Part shown: piece by piece, positions 1-36,540 of the stretch
Position numbering within the stretch: the stretch's first letter is position 1
Layout: each line of letters begins with the position of its first letter
Assembly (NCBI GenBank): GCA_028276405.1
Contig: JAPYWJ010000005.1
Span: 1-64,000 of the forward strand
Direction of reading: 5' to 3'
DNA length: 64,000 nt
Source of the DNA: Hydrogenobacter sp.
GTDB taxonomy: Bacteria; Aquificota; Aquificia; Aquificales; Aquificaceae
Translations under genes and position numbers: made by a program
Notes under the pieces: model-generated
The model's input: the letters and a program-made list of their open reading frames with translations, nothing else
The model's database searches: none
Told to the model about the DNA's origin: nothing

Positions 1-324
1 GCAAAGAGATTGACAGACATTCAGTTTCGGGATAGAATAACAACTAAATATGCAAGAGCCAAAAACAATCAAAAAGCCTAAGATTACGCCCGCCAAGTAT
101 AAAAAAGAAGTGGATAGCCTTGCCCTTGCCAATGTGCAGTTGCAACTTGAAAAAGCTTTCAGAAACCACTTAAAAAACCCAAAACATCTTGGATTGCCTA
201 AGTTCAAAAGAAAAAGGGGTAAAGCAGAGTGGTATGGGAGAACTTTTATTCAAGTAGATGGGTTCTTTCCATCTTCCAAGTTATGCCATTGCTGTGGCTA
301 TAAAAAACCTGTGGAGCAGTTCAC
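1..324 (+). mobile_element. Decayed IS605-type element, left part cut by window edge
   Basis: The first 49 bases match, with a few changes, the left-end leader of the intact tnpB element found in reverse orientation at 10159-10206. The element then carries a gutted tnpB and stops at an AGTTCAC right terminus (316-324), which also terminates the elements at 1151, 8927 and 35989. The terminal left-end hairpin and the TTTAAC target lie outside the window. The right-end hairpin has been lost. The permease start codon follows only 14 bases later. Confidence 0.75.
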
Positions 325-346
325 CTCTGTAATCTGGAATGTATAA
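50..346 (+). pseudogene. TnpB remnant with several internal deletions
   Basis: This 98-codon frame aligns in pieces to the intact 408-residue TnpB encoded at 8932-10158. It keeps roughly residues 1-9, 56-63, 69-106 and 307-335, then jumps to the PVEH region near the C-terminus. All RuvC catalytic residues are gone, as is the second CxxC of the zinc finger; only the first (CHCC) survives. The deletions removed about three quarters of the gene yet the frame stays open. The last codons run through the right end of the element into the permease start region. It cannot act as a nuclease; it is a non-autonomous relic. Confidence 0.8.
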
Positions 347-1103
347 CCTTTACCTTTTGTACCAGCTTGTGAAAAGAGATATAAGAATGTCCTTTGCAGG
401 GTCCATATTTGGCACTTTATGGATGTTTTTGAACCCTCTTCTCATGACAGGGGTTTTTTACCTCATATTTCAATACATAGTGAGAGCAAGGTTTCCCATT
501 GATGCTACGGAAGGTGCAAGCTATACGGTTTACCTTCTTACGGGGCTTGCCTTTTGGAACGGTTTTAGTCAGTCTCTGATCAGGGGCATGAACTCTATAA
601 CAGACAACGCCTATCTGCTAAAAAAAACTACGGTACCACCGTATCTTTTTGTGCTTGCTTCTACCACAACGGGTTTTATATACACCTTTGTTTCTTTGGG
701 ATACGCTCTTTTACTCAAGGACTTCCCATGGAGCCTGACGCACCTAATACCGCTAATTCCAGTGCTTATTATAGAGTTTTGCTTTGTTGCTGGCTTAACT
801 CTTCTTCTGGGAAGTCTGTGTGTGTATGTAAGAGATGTTTCTCAAATAGTTTCAACCTTTTTAAGTTTTGTCTTTTACTCCCTACCCATCATATACCCCG
901 TTTCTTATGTACCTGAGCCTTTCAAACCCTTCCTCCTTTTCAACCCACTTTTTTACATGCTTAGGAATGTCCAAATGGCTCTACTAAAAGGTTATATGGA
1001 CCCAAAACTGTTTCTCATTTCCTTGATGATATCTTTCGGGTTCTTGGTTTTAGGTACGCTTATTTACAAGCTTCTTAAGAGAGGTTTCTACGATGTGCTT
1101 TAA
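339..1103 (+). CDS. ABC-2 type polysaccharide export permease (Wzm/KpsM-like)
   Basis: This 254-residue inner-membrane protein has six hydrophobic segments and the family's N-terminal amphipathic stretch ([14 protein letters not shown]). It matches ABC-2 permeases that export O-antigen or capsule glycans across the inner membrane with a Wzt/KpsT ATPase. Its likely partner is the ATPase at 1131-2291, but that gene converges on it instead of sharing an operon. The start follows an IS remnant by 14 bases and has no clear ribosome binding site, so its original promoter and leader were probably displaced; expression may depend on transcription through the remnant. Its stop codon TAA is part of the TTTAAC target of the collapsed element that follows. 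Family assignment is firm; the substrate is inferred from neighbours. Confidence 0.88.
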
Positions 1104-1104
1104 C

Positions 1105-1151
1105 TCAAACCTGCAAAAAGTTTCCATCTTCTACAAGGTGGAGTAGTTCAC
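1105..1151 (+). mobile_element. Collapsed IS605-type element: left and right ends fused to one hairpin
   Basis: A TTTAAC target (1099-1104) is followed by a left-end-like stretch (CCTGCAAAAAGTTTCCATCTT). This passes directly into a right-end stretch (CTACAAGGTGGAGTAGTTCAC). The core folds as one hairpin (CCATCTT/AAGGTGG). Elements with the same outer ends occur at 8927-10254 and 35788-35989. It sits between two convergent genes and could also work as a bidirectional terminator, although no T-tract follows. Confidence 0.6.
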
Positions 1152-7965: not shown

Positions 7966-8947
7966 GTTCTTCACAGAAGGTGGTAAAGGGATAGGTTTTG
8001 GTCACATTAGTAGGTGTCTTTCTTTATGTCAGGCTTTTGAGGAGTTTTCCAAAGAGTGTATCTTTATCGTAAAGGGCGGAGAAGAAGTAAAAGAAGTTAT
8101 CCATGTTCCCCTAAAGCTCATGGATTGGGTAGAAAATTTAAACTCTTTTGAAAAAGAGCTAGAAGATGCACAGATAGTGATAGTAGACTCTTATCTTGCT
8201 AAGCAAGAGCATTACCAAATAGCGTGCGCTAAAGCAGAGAAGTGTCTTTTTGTAGATGACTTTAACAGACTTGAATATCCTTGTGGTTATGTGCTTAACG
8301 GAAGTGTATATGCTGGAGAGTTAAACTACCCAATAAAGAATAGTGTCTATTACCTTTTAGGAACACAGTACACGCCTTTGCGTAGGGCTTTTTGGCATGT
8401 GGAAAAAAAAGATATAGGTATGCAGATAGAAAGAATACTCATAACCTTCGGTGGAGATGATGCTCAAAATATGACATTTAGGGTAGTCAAGCATCTTGAG
8501 GATGTTTTTCCTCATATTGATAAACTGGTGGTTATAGGCTCTGGTTTTAAAAACAGAAGCCAAATACTTTCTCTGAAGTCAAATAAAGTTAGGATCTACC
8601 AAAACCTTTCAGAAGAAGATATGAAGACTCTTATGGTTTTGTGTGATATGGCAGTTAGTGCAGGTGGACAAACTACTTATGAGTTAGCAAGAGTAGGACT
8701 TCCAAGTGTGCTTGTTGCTGTAGCACAAAACCAACTCCTAAATTGCTTAAGTTGGGAGAAGGTAGGATTCGCCCTTTATGCAGGTTGGTGGGAAGATGGC
8801 ATGCTTTTGGATAAAATTGCAAAGTATATAAGGAGCCTTGAAGATGCTAACATCCGGTTAAAAATGTCAGAGGTAGGCAGACTCTTAGTTGACGGACAAG
8901 GAGCAAGAAGGGTGGCTTATAAAATGGTGAACTACCCCACCTTATAG
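7955..8947 (+). CDS. PseG-like UDP-sugar hydrolase/glycosyltransferase, 3' end altered by IS insertion
   Basis: The protein has 330 residues. The N-terminus has the PseG/GT-B signature TEGGKGIGFGHISRC with the family's catalytic histidine; the C-terminal half has the nucleotide-sugar-binding TTYELARVGLPSVLVAVAQNQ stretch. PseG removes UDP from the 2,4-diacetamido sugar before nonulosonate synthesis, which fits the cassette. It overlaps the upstream gene by 11 bases. The last residues (VNYPTL) and the TAG are encoded by the right end of the inserted tnpB element. Removing 8927-10254 restores in frame a tail ending MVKNLNY with a TAG two bases before the next gene. Only a few terminal residues are changed, so activity may survive. 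No NeuB-type synthase is present in the window. Confidence 0.8.
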   Translation: MRIKFFTEGGKGIGFGHISRCLSLCQAFEEFSKECIFIVKGGEEVKEVIHVPLKLMDWVENLNSFEKELEDAQIVIVDSYLAKQEHYQIACAKAEKCLFVDDFNRLEYPCGYVLNGSVYAGELNYPIKNSVYYLLGTQYTPLRRAFWHVEKKDIGMQIERILITFGGDDAQNMTFRVVKHLEDVFPHIDKLVVIGSGFKNRSQILSLKSNKVRIYQNLSEEDMKTLMVLCDMAVSAGGQTTYELARVGLPSVLVAVAQNQLLNCLSWEKVGFALYAGWWEDGMLLDKIAKYIRSLEDANIRLKMSEVGRLLVDGQGARRVAYKMVNYPTL

Positions 8948-9055
8948 AAGGTGGAGCTTCCTGCTTCAACGCATGATGGCTTTTTAGGTATCCCGTAAGG
9001 GATACGGTCATCCACCAGAGCATGCTCCACAGGCTTAACTTCGGGCTGTTCCATC
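8927..9055 (-). ncRNA. Predicted omegaRNA scaffold at the 3' end of tnpB
   Basis: On the minus strand the tnpB 3' end contains CCGAAGT, AAGCCTGTGGAG, GAAGCAGGAAGCTC (8954-8967), the right-end hairpin and GTAGTTCAC. The same blocks in the same order are kept in the tnpB-less remnant at 35902-35989, which suggests conservation for RNA rather than protein. omegaRNAs of IS605 elements have this position and a similar GAAGCAGGAAGC-like block. The guide would begin just outside, at 8926, reading into the PseG-like gene. The 5' limit is uncertain. Confidence 0.5.
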
Positions 9056-10158
9056 CCTACCAAGTATAGGTTTATAGACGCATTCACATCCCTGTCGTGG
9101 GCTTTCCCACATACAGGACAGACCCAAATTCTTTCATACAAAGCCAAGTCCTCTTTTTTATAGCCACACCAATGGCATAACTTGGAAGATGGGAAGAACC
9201 TCTCCACTTGAATAAAAGTTCTCCCATACCACTCTGCCTTATACCTGAGATAGGTCAAAAACTTTGACCAGCTACTGTCTAAGATGGACTTGGCAAGGTC
9301 TGTCCGCAGTAGTCCCTCTATGTTTATGTCCTCCACCACCACAACTTGGTTTTCGTCTATGATGGCTTTGGACAGTTTATGCAAAAAGTCCTTCCTTGCG
9401 TTGGATATATAAGCGTGTAGTTTAGCAAGTTTTTGCCTTGTCTTTTCGTAGTTCTTTGACCCTTTTTTCTTCCTTGATAAAGCTTTTTGAAGTTTCTTCA
9501 GTCTTTTCTCCACACGCCTTAGATGTTTGGGATGTTCTACCTTGTAAGTCCCAAAATCGTTGGTAATGGTGGCAAAGTGTTCCAGACCTAAATCTATTCC
9601 ACAGGCTTTGCTTTTGGGTTCTATAACCTTGTTTCTTGGTTCTTCTGTCTCCACCAAGATAGAAACATAATACTTTCCATCTTTTGTCTTACTCACAGTG
9701 GCAGATTTTATCTGCCCCTCAAAGGTTCTATGCAGTTCCATCTTTATCCCGTCCTTTATCTTTGGTAGATACAACAGCCCTTTTTCAAAATCTACCCTTA
9801 TGGAACCGTTCACATTGTTTGTAGTGTAAGATTGCTTATCCTTTTTTCTTTTGAACTTAGGCAATCCAAGATGTTTTGGGTTTTTCAAGTGGTTCTTGAA
9901 AGCTTTTTCAAGTTGCAACTGCACATTAGCAAGGGCAAGGCTATCCACTTCTTTGAGAAAGGGAAACTCTTCTTTATACTTGGCGGGCGTAATTCTTGGT
10001 ATGGGTTCTCCCTTTTCGTAGGCAGACAGCTTTTCTGCTAACATCTTATTCCAAACAAACCTACAACAGCCAAAGTTCTTGGCGAAGTATTCCTGCTGTT
10101 CTTTGTTTGGATAAATGCGGTATTTATAGGCTTTTTTGATTATTTTTGTCTCTTGCAT
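8932..10158 (-). CDS. tnpB: TnpB RNA-guided nuclease (IS605 OrfB family)
   Basis: An apparently intact TnpB of 408 residues. The RuvC-like nuclease is complete: RuvC-I CGIDLG with Asp189, RuvC-II VVVVEDINI with Glu276, RuvC-III DRDVNAS with Asp357. A four-cysteine zinc finger sits between II and III (C328, C331, C347, C350). TnpB enzymes cut double-stranded DNA next to the element's target motif, guided by an omegaRNA that reads from the gene's 3' end across the right end into flanking DNA; this helps retain the element. By that rule the motif here would be TTTAAC and the guide would be the last codons of the PseG-like gene. Length and all key residues are typical, so it is probably active. 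Confidence 0.92.
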   Translation of the reverse strand: MQETKIIKKAYKYRIYPNKEQQEYFAKNFGCCRFVWNKMLAEKLSAYEKGEPIPRITPAKYKEEFPFLKEVDSLALANVQLQLEKAFKNHLKNPKHLGLPKFKRKKDKQSYTTNNVNGSIRVDFEKGLLYLPKIKDGIKMELHRTFEGQIKSATVSKTKDGKYYVSILVETEEPRNKVIEPKSKACGIDLGLEHFATITNDFGTYKVEHPKHLRRVEKRLKKLQKALSRKKKGSKNYEKTRQKLAKLHAYISNARKDFLHKLSKAIIDENQVVVVEDINIEGLLRTDLAKSILDSSWSKFLTYLRYKAEWYGRTFIQVERFFPSSKLCHWCGYKKEDLALYERIWVCPVCGKAHDRDVNASINLYLVGMEQPEVKPVEHALVDDRIPYGIPKKPSCVEAGSSTFYKVG

Positions 10159-34757: not shown

Positions 34758-35786
34758 ATGAAAGCAGTATTGCTTAAAGCCTTTGGCGGAGTAGAGCATC
34801 TTGAGTATGTAGAGGACTTTCCCAAGCCAGAAATAAAAGAAGACGAGGTGCTCATCAAGGTAAAAGCGGTAGCTCTAAACCATCTTGACATTTGGGTTAG
34901 AAAGGGAGCTTTAGCCATAAAGCCTGAGCTTCCTCACATATTGGGTTCTGATATTAGCGGTGTGGTGGAAAAAGTGGGAAGTTTGGTAAGAAATGTAAAG
35001 GAGGGAGATGAGGTTGTGGTCTCTCCTGGGCTTTCCTGTGGGGTTTGTCATGAGTGCCTCTCTGGTAGGGATAACTTGTGTAGGTATTACGATATATTAG
35101 GTCTTAAGGCAAAGGGTGGTTATGCGGGGTATGTAAAAGTGCCGTCAAAAAATGTCATCCCAAAACCTAAAAACCTGAGCTTTGAGGAATCTGCAAGCTA
35201 TCCTCTTACCTTCCTAACTGTCTGGAATGCTCTTGTGAGAAAAGGGCAGATAAAACCTTACAGCAAAGTGCTCATATGGGCTGGGTCTTCGGGTGTAGGT
35301 GTGGCAGGCATACAGATAGCCAAGCTGATGGGCGCTTTTGTTATAGCTACAGCAGGAAGCGAAGAGAAGGCAAACAGGTGCAAGCAGTTGGGTGCTGACT
35401 TGGTAATAAATCACTATCAGGAGAATGTACCCAAAAGGGTAAGAGAGATCTTCAAGGAAGGTGTTGATGTAGTGATGGACCATGTGGGTGAGCAGACTTT
35501 CTTAAAAAGCATAGAATGCCTTAGGAAAGGTGGCAAGTTAGTGTTCTTTGGAACCACTACGGGAAGCAACGCAAGCATAGACATAAGGTACTTGTTTGTA
35601 AGAGAGATAGAGCTCATAGGCACTTACATGGGACCATCTGCTGACCTTTTGAAAATATCAGAGCTTTTTGAAAGGGGACTTTTAAAGCCTATAGTAGACA
35701 AGGTGTTTCATCTTTCGCAAGCTCAAGAAGCGCACGAGTATTTAGAAGCATCCAAACACTTTGGCAAGGTTATACTTAAAGTTTAA
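34758..35786 (+). CDS. Zinc-dependent alcohol dehydrogenase (MDR family)
   Basis: The protein has 342 residues. A GroES-like catalytic domain contains NHLDIWVRKG, the GSDISGVVEKVG loop and a structural zinc site CGVCHECLSGRDNLC. The Rossmann domain has WAGSSGVGVAGIQIAK. Substrate cannot be told; many Aquificales homologues are annotated as alcohol dehydrogenase. It starts 4 bases after the HepT-like gene and is probably in one operon. Its TAA stop lies in the TTTAAC target of the following IS remnant. Confidence 0.88.
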   Translation: MKAVLLKAFGGVEHLEYVEDFPKPEIKEDEVLIKVKAVALNHLDIWVRKGALAIKPELPHILGSDISGVVEKVGSLVRNVKEGDEVVVSPGLSCGVCHECLSGRDNLCRYYDILGLKAKGGYAGYVKVPSKNVIPKPKNLSFEESASYPLTFLTVWNALVRKGQIKPYSKVLIWAGSSGVGVAGIQIAKLMGAFVIATAGSEEKANRCKQLGADLVINHYQENVPKRVREIFKEGVDVVMDHVGEQTFLKSIECLRKGGKLVFFGTTTGSNASIDIRYLFVREIELIGTYMGPSADLLKISELFERGLLKPIVDKVFHLSQAQEAHEYLEASKHFGKVILKV

Positions 35787-35787
35787 C

Positions 35788-35989
35788 CCAACTCCGCAAG
35801 AAGTCTCCATCTTACAGAAGGTGGAGATGAATTGCGAAAGACTTGACAGGGTTCTTATTTTGGACTATAGTAATAGATGTCCCGATAATCAAGGGACCTA
35901 GGGTTGGAACGACCCGAAGTAAAGCCTGTGGAGAGGTGGAACCTCTGTGAAGCAGGAAGCTCTATCTTATAGAAGGTGGAGTAGTTCAC
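35788..35989 (+). mobile_element. tnpB-less miniature IS605-type element
   Basis: The element follows TTTAAC (35782-35787). Its left end (CTCCGCAAGAAGTCTCCATC...) has the same hairpin as the intact element, with the loop inverted (ACAG instead of CTGT). Its right end has the hairpin CTATCTT/AAGGTGG and ends at GTAGTTCAC. All of tnpB is missing, but the 3' omegaRNA-like part is kept. Both ends look competent, so TnpA in trans could still move it. Confidence 0.8.
35870..35989 (+). ncRNA. Orphan omegaRNA-like segment
   Basis: Three compact hairpins occur in order: GTCCC/GGGAC (35879-35897), GGGT/ACCC (35901-35915) and AGAGGT/ACCTCT (35932-35946). They are followed by GAAGCAGGAAGCTC, the right-end hairpin and GTAGTTCAC. 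The same sequence blocks follow tnpB in the intact element at 8927-9055. The guide would start at 35990 in the cusA remnant. Whether it is transcribed is unknown; transcription could run on from the alcohol dehydrogenase operon. Confidence 0.55.
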
Positions 35990-36540
35990 TTGCGATGCTT
36001 GAAACTATAAAGTGCTGGCAGGATAAAGAGGGCAGTTAAAAAAGCAGAAACCACACCACCCAACATGGGCAAGGCTATGCGGGATATAACCTCAGCCCCC
36101 ACACCTTTTAGGTATATAGCCGGTAGCAAACCTGCCACAATAGCCAGCATTGTCATAGCTTTAGGTCTTATCCTCTTTACAGCACCTTCGTATATGGCTT
36201 CTTCAAAGCTTTTGTCTTTACCTTCCTCCAAGGATTTCATTATGTAAACCACCATCACTATACCCATCTCCGCTGCGATCCCAAGAAGAGCTAAAAAACC
36301 AGCCACACTTGCCAAGGAAAGCTTATAGTCCAAAAGATACATGAGCAAAAAGCCACCAAGCAAAGAGGATGGAAGGGTAAGAAGCACCAAAAAGGTCTCA
36401 AATAGCTTACCAAGGCTTAGATAAACAAGGACAACTATTAAAAGCAACACAAGGGGCACTATTATTCTAAGGTCCTGCATGGCCTTTTGGTAGTATTCAA
36501 ATTGCCCACTCCACTGATAATAGTATCCTGTGGGTAAATT
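35986..36540 (-). pseudogene. CusA/CzcA RND efflux pump, C-terminal fragment
   Basis: About 180 codons remain of a protein that is normally over 1000 residues long. The readable frame begins with LPTGYYYQWSGQFEYYQKA near 36535, a conserved CusA segment, and continues through the last five membrane helices (VPLVLLLIVVLVYLSLG, GIAAEMGIVMVVYIMKS, RIRPKAMTMLAIVAGLLP). The 5' nine tenths are gone. The first ATG is at 36480. The stop TGA is supplied by the right end of the IS remnant. A functional pump is not possible. Confidence 0.88.

Follow-up and report, generated by a model that had tools for sequence, protein, structure and literature searches.

Background: guide RNAs of IS200/IS605 elements

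Non-autonomous members of the IS200/IS605 family (MITEs, PATEs) are short, possess both terminal hairpins but no gene, and are presumably moved by TnpA in trans. Standalone omegaRNAs, for which we know of no intragenic hairpin, reportedly occur in IscB systems, where according to Altae-Tran et al. in 2021 the guide RNA gene is located away from the nuclease gene.

TnpB makes its omegaRNA from its own mRNA, as described in the RNA processing part of the study on AmaTnpB (Nety et al. 2023, PMC10278001). The corresponding passages also assign an inhibitory effect on cleavage in vitro to nucleotides 825-875 of the AmaTnpB mRNA, adjacent to RuvC-II, and ask about the conservation of this region. 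In the sections of the ISDra2 structure paper dealing with the omegaRNA (PMC10097598), the 5' region of this RNA was found to be dispensable and the functional parts of gene and RNA are argued to hardly overlap. Our literature search, whose incomplete coverage does not prove absence, returned no publication that deals with TnpB guide RNA elements devoid of tnpB or with a conserved hairpin within tnpB.

Architecture and insertion of the mini-element

The locus compared here lies in a stretch of 64,000 nt from Hydrogenobacter sp. (the window) and comprises the following features:

35788-35989, + strand: tnpB-less mini-element of the IS200/IS605 type, 202 bp (precise insertion relative to the empty site; copies in the same genome)
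35782-35787, + strand: TTTAAC insertion target, TAM-like, in the left flank (sequence; TCTAAC at the empty site of two congeners)
35805-35826, + strand: left-end (LE) hairpin (direct repeat of the RE hairpin; matches the LE of other copies)
35843-35871, + strand: predicted sigma-70-like promoter TTGACA-17-TATAGT (11 of 12 consensus positions; same geometry in relatives)
35879-35897, + strand: 5' hairpin GTCCC-GATAATCAA-GGGAC at the predicted transcript start (fold; covariation among orphans; counterpart in the tnpB coding sequence)
35898-35989, + strand: omegaRNA scaffold ending in TTCAC (covariance-model match; fold; covariation over 15 orphans)
35901-35915, + strand: scaffold helix H1
35925-35929/35952-35956, + strand: scaffold helix H2
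35932-35946, + strand: scaffold helix H3
35959-35982, + strand: right-end (RE) hairpin, part of the scaffold
35990-36009, + strand: predicted guide, the first ~16-20 nt of the right flank (position relative to the RE)

In contrast to MITEs and PATEs, the interior of the mini-element consists of a promoter and a covarying omegaRNA instead of filler. Its separation from the nuclease gene resembles that of the standalone IscB omegaRNAs, which are however of the IscB and not of the TnpB type. As in the omegaRNA (reRNA) of ISDra2 and AmaTnpB, in the parts of the two studies that describe it (PMC10097598, PMC10278001), the scaffold ends at the RE hairpin with the guide in the flank, and the RNA is encoded together with the transposon ends, with a TAM-like site at the LE. 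Whereas the RNA described there is the 3' part of the tnpB mRNA and is processed by TnpB, the mini-element has a predicted promoter of its own and no tnpB. Also unlike the ISDra2 and AmaTnpB omegaRNA, its 5' hairpin lies directly at the scaffold, the counterpart in tnpB being ~300 nt away.

The observation behind the original prediction, which was made from the sequence of the window, is real and its reading mostly right. The coordinates given for a miniature IS605 element with both end hairpins and a TTTAAC target are exact. The terminal sequence of the element is TAGTTCAC. Its LE and RE hairpins (35805-35826 and 35960-35981) form a 91% direct repeat, and the hairpins at both ends match those of a tnpB-bearing copy, as is characteristic of non-autonomous IS200/IS605 elements. 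With the joined flanks as query, the empty site was detected in two congeners (G002 and G001) as ...ATCTAAC followed without interruption by TGCGGTG. The 202-bp unit therefore came in whole and precisely in the IS200/IS605 fashion, 3' of a fixed target and without target duplication.

The GAAGCAGGAAGCTC block that had been noticed along with the ordered small hairpins is located at 35949-35962. The minimum free energy fold of the RNA from position 35876 comprises five helices at -41 kcal/mol (z = -3.78; equal stability in 1 of 200 shuffles). The retained omegaRNA-like segment corresponds to the scaffold model match at 35898-35989, and the search against Rfam returned no matching family for the mini-element. 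That the guide would be drawn from 35990 onwards agrees with the sequence geometry, the guide being located directly 3' of the RE. A perfect 16-nt match to this guide occurs in the genome only at its own locus, while matches with two to three mismatches are at the level of the reversed-pattern control (19 versus 21 in total) and reveal no second genomic target.

The statement that all tnpB coding sequence is gone needs correction. No gene is present inside the mini-element since its longest internal open reading frame encodes only 44 aa. The scaffold, however, matches DNA overlapping the tnpB 3' end in the intact copy, and the 5' hairpin, too, has a counterpart within the tnpB reading frame. 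A loss of tnpB by simple deletion of the intact copy in the window is rejected in view of the separate promoter sequence and the 5' hairpin of the unit and of its close copies in other genomes; instead it belongs to a widespread tnpB-less lineage. This lineage of guide RNA transposons and the conserved hairpin in tnpB go beyond what had been predicted.

Taken together with the comparative data below, the mini-element is probably a guide-only mobile element, that is, a non-autonomous IS200/IS605-type transposon whose cargo would be one standalone omegaRNA gene using TnpB in trans, with a functional 5' hairpin.

The intact TnpB and further copies in the same genome

The intact tnpB to which the original prediction attributed the same scaffold blocks is located on the opposite strand:

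8932-10158, - strand: intact TnpB of 408 aa, candidate trans partner (Pfam OrfB_IS605, TNB and HTH)
8927-9060, - strand: scaffold of the omegaRNA belonging to the intact copy; overlaps tnpB at its 3' end (covariance-model match, 77.8 bits)
9343-9357, - strand: intragenic hairpin GAC-GAAAACCAA-GTT in tnpB, ~294 nt upstream of the scaffold

The shared scaffold was recovered with 77.8 bits although the intact copy is absent from the 19 model sequences, while the 97.9 bits of the mini-element arise partly by construction because it is one of them. The TnpB frame is open, and the RuvC D/E/D residues and the zinc ribbon are in place in the alignment to the ISDra2-type TnpB. The protein aligns to ISDra2 TnpB at ~1e-77, its closest PDB chains being ISDra2 TnpB and an AI-designed relative.

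A blastn search with the mini-element returned 18 matches in the same genome, including two copies of nearly full length (91% and 83% identical) and three incomplete ones, of which two are 5'-cut, their left part being cut by another IS end, and one of 138 bp is devoid of the promoter. Y1 TnpA (PF01797) was not found in the 55-contig source assembly, from which it could be lost or fall into a gap, and was found in 12 of 64 genomes of the family. Present mobility in the source strain is therefore doubtful.

Two copies (L004:1501-1740, L007:1440-1560 and L005) appear to be split by another IS with the end GAGGCTGTTCTAAAAATAATGCC, possibly with an 8-bp duplication GAAAGACT; the halves are located on different contigs. 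Window 1075-1151 (+) and L016:1500-1540 represent scars without scaffold in which a single hairpin combines the LE with the RE hairpin, which looks like the recombination of two terminal repeats in the fashion of solo LTRs. An internally deleted tnpB remnant at window 74-337 (+), in which residues ~53-108 and 305-345 are fused into an open frame of 101 aa, is preceded by a normal-looking LE promoter and has an RE-like end.

Distribution of tnpB-linked and orphan scaffolds

The scaffold covariance model was built from 19 sequences (15 tnpB-less and four tnpB-linked) and gave 114 matches in 32 of the 64 family genomes searched. After removal of 16 matches below 35 bits, the linkage of the remaining 98 to tnpB was assessed by tblastn with 18 TnpBs in up to 1250 nt upstream of each match. 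This resulted in 51 orphans without tnpB, 39 linked copies and eight matches at contig ends that stayed undecided. For the other families of the phylum (136 genomes searched) the figures were 24 linked, 13 orphan and three undecided, which is no estimate of the orphan share since these 40 matches (20 from f5, 20 from f2 and f3) were hand-picked.

Over all 138 classified matches, 63 have tnpB upstream, 64 do not and 11 are undecided. Orphans are present in 26 of the 54 genomes of the classified set, 15 of which also hold a classified linked copy. Those relatives that are named are MAGs of the Aquificaceae and Aquificales. Some orphans of the family, such as L180, L202 and L220, are decayed. In the 96% complete genome G085 the orphan is well paired, but the TNB domain search gave nothing over the cut-off. 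G004, whose genome is a single contig, has two scaffold matches, both of them orphans. Together with the rarity of TnpA these cases are compatible with active copies existing side by side with dying ones. If the guide-only interpretation is right, separate, mobile and self-promoted TnpB guide RNA genes would be about as common in the family as tnpB-linked ones.

Three near-identical class I orphans (see below for the classes) occur at different sites in the single-contig genome G122 of another family (L241, L242, L243), their RNA being longer between the 5' hairpin and the scaffold.

Structural constraint on the orphan scaffold

In the 15 orphans taken by themselves, 98.6% of the cells in the scaffold helices are paired as against 86.1% after shuffling, and the covariation score is 0.447 as against 0.193, with neither value being reached in any of 500 shuffles. 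Two other measures are not extreme, namely pairs changed on both sides (reached in 39 of 500 shuffles) and further pair types (101 of 500). The covariation is similar when the four linked copies are joined to the orphans. The scaffold of the tnpB-less units is under RNA structural constraint through compensatory changes; such changes had been set as the point on which the original prediction could fail, and the result (0 of 500 shuffles) came out in its favour.

These data bear on the rather unlikely alternative that the units are relics, meaning internally deleted IS copies moved by TnpA in trans, in which the omegaRNA would be an unused passenger and its pairing inherited from the linked copies. 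The decayed state of several orphans, the undetected cognate TnpB in G085 and G004 and the existence of the super-short fused-hairpin scars without scaffold would fit such an origin. However, the orphans vary and covary among themselves, the promoter and the hairpin stand in a fixed register across separate lineages, and two TnpB subfamilies each retained their own intragenic element and shed the remainder, all of which speaks against relics.

5' elements and predicted promoters of the orphan units

According to their 5' elements the 64 orphans were assigned to class I (31, including the window copy), class II (12), class III (5) or none (16). In class I a hairpin with the loop GATARYCAA or a close variant follows the promoter-like region. 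Among the scaffold matches of the family, 26 of 51 orphans versus none of the 39 linked copies have the loop hairpin near the scaffold. The stems differ between lineages (GTCCC/GGGAC, GCTTAGC/GCTAAGC, GATAGCC/GGCTATC, GGC/GCC).

Hairpins were anchored by the loop or by the protein motif, and two of the five covariation measures are non-extreme in each hairpin test. With the loop as sole anchor, 22 distinct class I sequences have 80.7% of their cells paired compared to 65.8% in shuffles, and the covariation is 0.398 compared to 0.187 (0 of 500 shuffles), the two non-extreme ones being counting measures (300 and 301 of 500 shuffles). The 5' hairpin came out misplaced when entire orphans were aligned with MAFFT, and this alignment was left out of the counts.

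Of 31 units examined for promoters (30 orphans and the copy L005), 27 have a promoter-like hexamer pair matching at least eight of 12 positions, where shuffles gave a mean of 8.05 and a maximum of 15; at the same place of tnpB, eight of 21 segments have one. At the stricter level of nine of 12 the numbers are ten of 31 and 1.87 in shuffles. The best-scoring -10 hexamer adjoins the hairpin; in all but one of the 31 rows its end and the loop are 8-17 nt apart.

Several class II orphans (L198, L206, L208, L209, L211, L188, L190) show a TTGCAY-17-TAAAAT-like promoter. The class also has a conserved 5' domain, GGTGGAGAGCTANANGGGTGTGATGCCAGCCTCCACC, within 150 nt upstream of the scaffold, for which the search of its L061-type tnpB yielded only weak fuzzy matches that were rejected, so that no counterpart was found there.

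An RNA hairpin within the tnpB reading frame

The counterpart of the class I hairpin in tnpB lies next to RuvC-II and precedes the scaffold by ~300 nt. GATAACCAA occurs 16 times in the 68,156 nt inspected ahead of linked scaffolds, in all 16 cases at 250-380 nt from the scaffold. This sequence encodes x-D/E-N-Q-y, as in HKLSKQII-G-DNQ-A-VIVED. The AI-designed nuclease near ISDra2, which ranks first among the PDB relatives of the window TnpB, is without the ENQ phrase.

Codons x and y on its two sides are often reverse-complementary to one another (GGC/GCC, GAC/GTC, AAC/GTT, CAC/GTG, CGC/GCG, CGT/ACG). After the addition of 80 TnpB relatives from viral contigs, retained out of 538, 31 non-redundant tnpB were anchored by the protein motif alone. 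The outer codon pair forms in 27 of them versus 17.7 expected when y codons are shuffled only between sequences that share the y amino acid, and none of 20,000 permutations reached this value. Six control position pairs gave no signal in the same 31 genes (P 0.32 to 1.0), and a possible fourth stem pair showed no excess pairing (20 of 31, P 0.34). The hairpin is not universal among TnpBs: the viral set contains 58 motif instances, of which 23 have a loop-like sequence, 20 of these with a stem of at least three pairs.

Three TnpBs of another family (G088, G090, G098) contain the same loop with the stem CTGC/GCAG in another reading frame (A-I-T-K-Q), and viral L330 likewise holds loop and stem in another frame. 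The protein motif is therefore no explanation for the hairpin. Class III orphans begin with GGGGAATAACTGCA[GGGG..CCCC]TGCGACC, and tnpB of the corresponding subfamily contains GGGGGAATAACTGCA[AGG..CCT]TGCGACC in frame, ~234-260 nt upstream of the scaffold, its outer stem varying in step at third codon positions as read by eye. Considering the patterns of classes I and III, at least two TnpB subfamilies therefore hold an intragenic RNA element, and the class III units, like those of class I, kept this element and the scaffold and lost the remaining tnpB.

The codon data indicate that the intragenic hairpin in tnpB is kept as RNA. As tnpB-less units retain it while the surrounding coding sequence was dropped, the hairpin most likely has a function in the guide RNA itself or in how this RNA is handled and is not a protein-coding accident. 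Weighing against this are the 16 orphans with none of the three 5' elements, the class II domain without a counterpart in tnpB, the lack of excess at the fourth stem pair and the dispensable 5' region in ISDra2. It seems improbable that the hairpin merely stabilises the 5' end of the standalone transcript after a chance recruitment from tnpB. Its location in class I, where the transcript is predicted to begin, would suit such a role, which is however difficult to reconcile with the conserved loop sequence and with compensatory codon changes in tnpB mRNAs, where the hairpin is distant from the 5' ends. A single-stranded DNA element acting in transposition (TnpA or excision) instead of an RNA is very improbable: IS200/IS605 ends do use DNA hairpins, but known TnpA sites are terminal, the stem contains G-U pairs and in the orphans the hairpin is located behind the promoter.

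The hairpin resembles the AmaTnpB inhibitory region, in the passages of PMC10278001 describing it, in being an RNA element close to RuvC-II within the coding sequence of tnpB; that region is a biochemical finding on one enzyme, whereas the hairpin is conserved and covarying and lies at another offset. The orphan RNA could accordingly be imagined as a decoy or brake on TnpB, with the hairpin being akin to the inhibitory mRNA region, a role we regard as doubtful at best. The reported inhibition by nucleotides 825-875 in that part of the study and the position of the class I element beside RuvC-II and joined to the scaffold would be in line with it. By comparison of positions only, however, the class I element precedes the Glu codon of RuvC-II by ~20-35 nt and the class III element lies further downstream, so the offsets differ, and the RE and guide junction is intact, which would be superfluous for a pure decoy. 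With the hairpin taken as a functional part of the guide RNA, tnpB would carry an overlapping RNA code beside a catalytic motif, a reason why recoding of tnpB could alter activity, and a concrete place to study omegaRNA biogenesis and the reported self-inhibition.

Proposed mode of action

At the level of sequence a mobile unit of fixed architecture, a paired RNA, the guide geometry and the intragenic RNA hairpin are established. A guide-only element of this kind would be moved by TnpA supplied elsewhere, and its internal promoter would transcribe the omegaRNA from a start at the 5' hairpin, the guide presumably being taken from the flank at each landing site. TnpB from another copy, as the original prediction had suggested for the intact one in the window, may bind the orphan RNA and cut sites of TTTAAC plus guide without the element, which would favour its retention or homing. 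The 5' hairpin might contribute to recognition by TnpB, to definition or processing of the 5' end or to damping of activity. Any such insertion could then re-program TnpB in trans.

More tentatively, the guide RNA of this clade may consist of two parts, the in-frame hairpin and the 3' scaffold, both of which the guide-only transposons would have distilled while moving between bacteria and phages and programming the host TnpB in trans; this wider scheme is possible, though we do not expect it to hold in full. If host TnpB is programmed in this way, a carrier phage could turn it on relatives without the unit, similar to homing endonucleases.

Copies in viral contigs

Units of the window type (LE, promoter, hairpin and scaffold) were detected by the orphan pattern search in four IMG/VR contigs (L365-L368). 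The copy in L367 is located between the tape-measure and the major tail protein genes, that in L368 at the 3' end of the terminase large subunit gene, and that in L365 adjoins a Gp23-like capsid gene. Being carried by phages, such copies are suggestive of homing in a protein-free form. A TNB domain is present in three of the four records, which may be fragments; the matches comprise a tnpB with its 5' part unmatched (L489), a frame-interrupted copy of another subfamily (L490) and one partial match. The GAAAACCAA orphan pattern gave no match in the viral contigs, and a promoter-plus-loop pattern was disregarded as too loose (at least 120 matches).

The RE sequence provides the stop codon of a convergent neighbour gene in the window (35986-36480, -), in L365 (3497-4663) and in L368 (1315-2625), and the mini-element insertions seem to be placed at gene 3' ends in the window and two viral copies. 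Of the AcrB/RND family, the open reading frame at 35986-36480 matches no more than the final 157 positions, corresponding to a fragment or a split gene, and adjoins a gene for an outer-membrane efflux protein.
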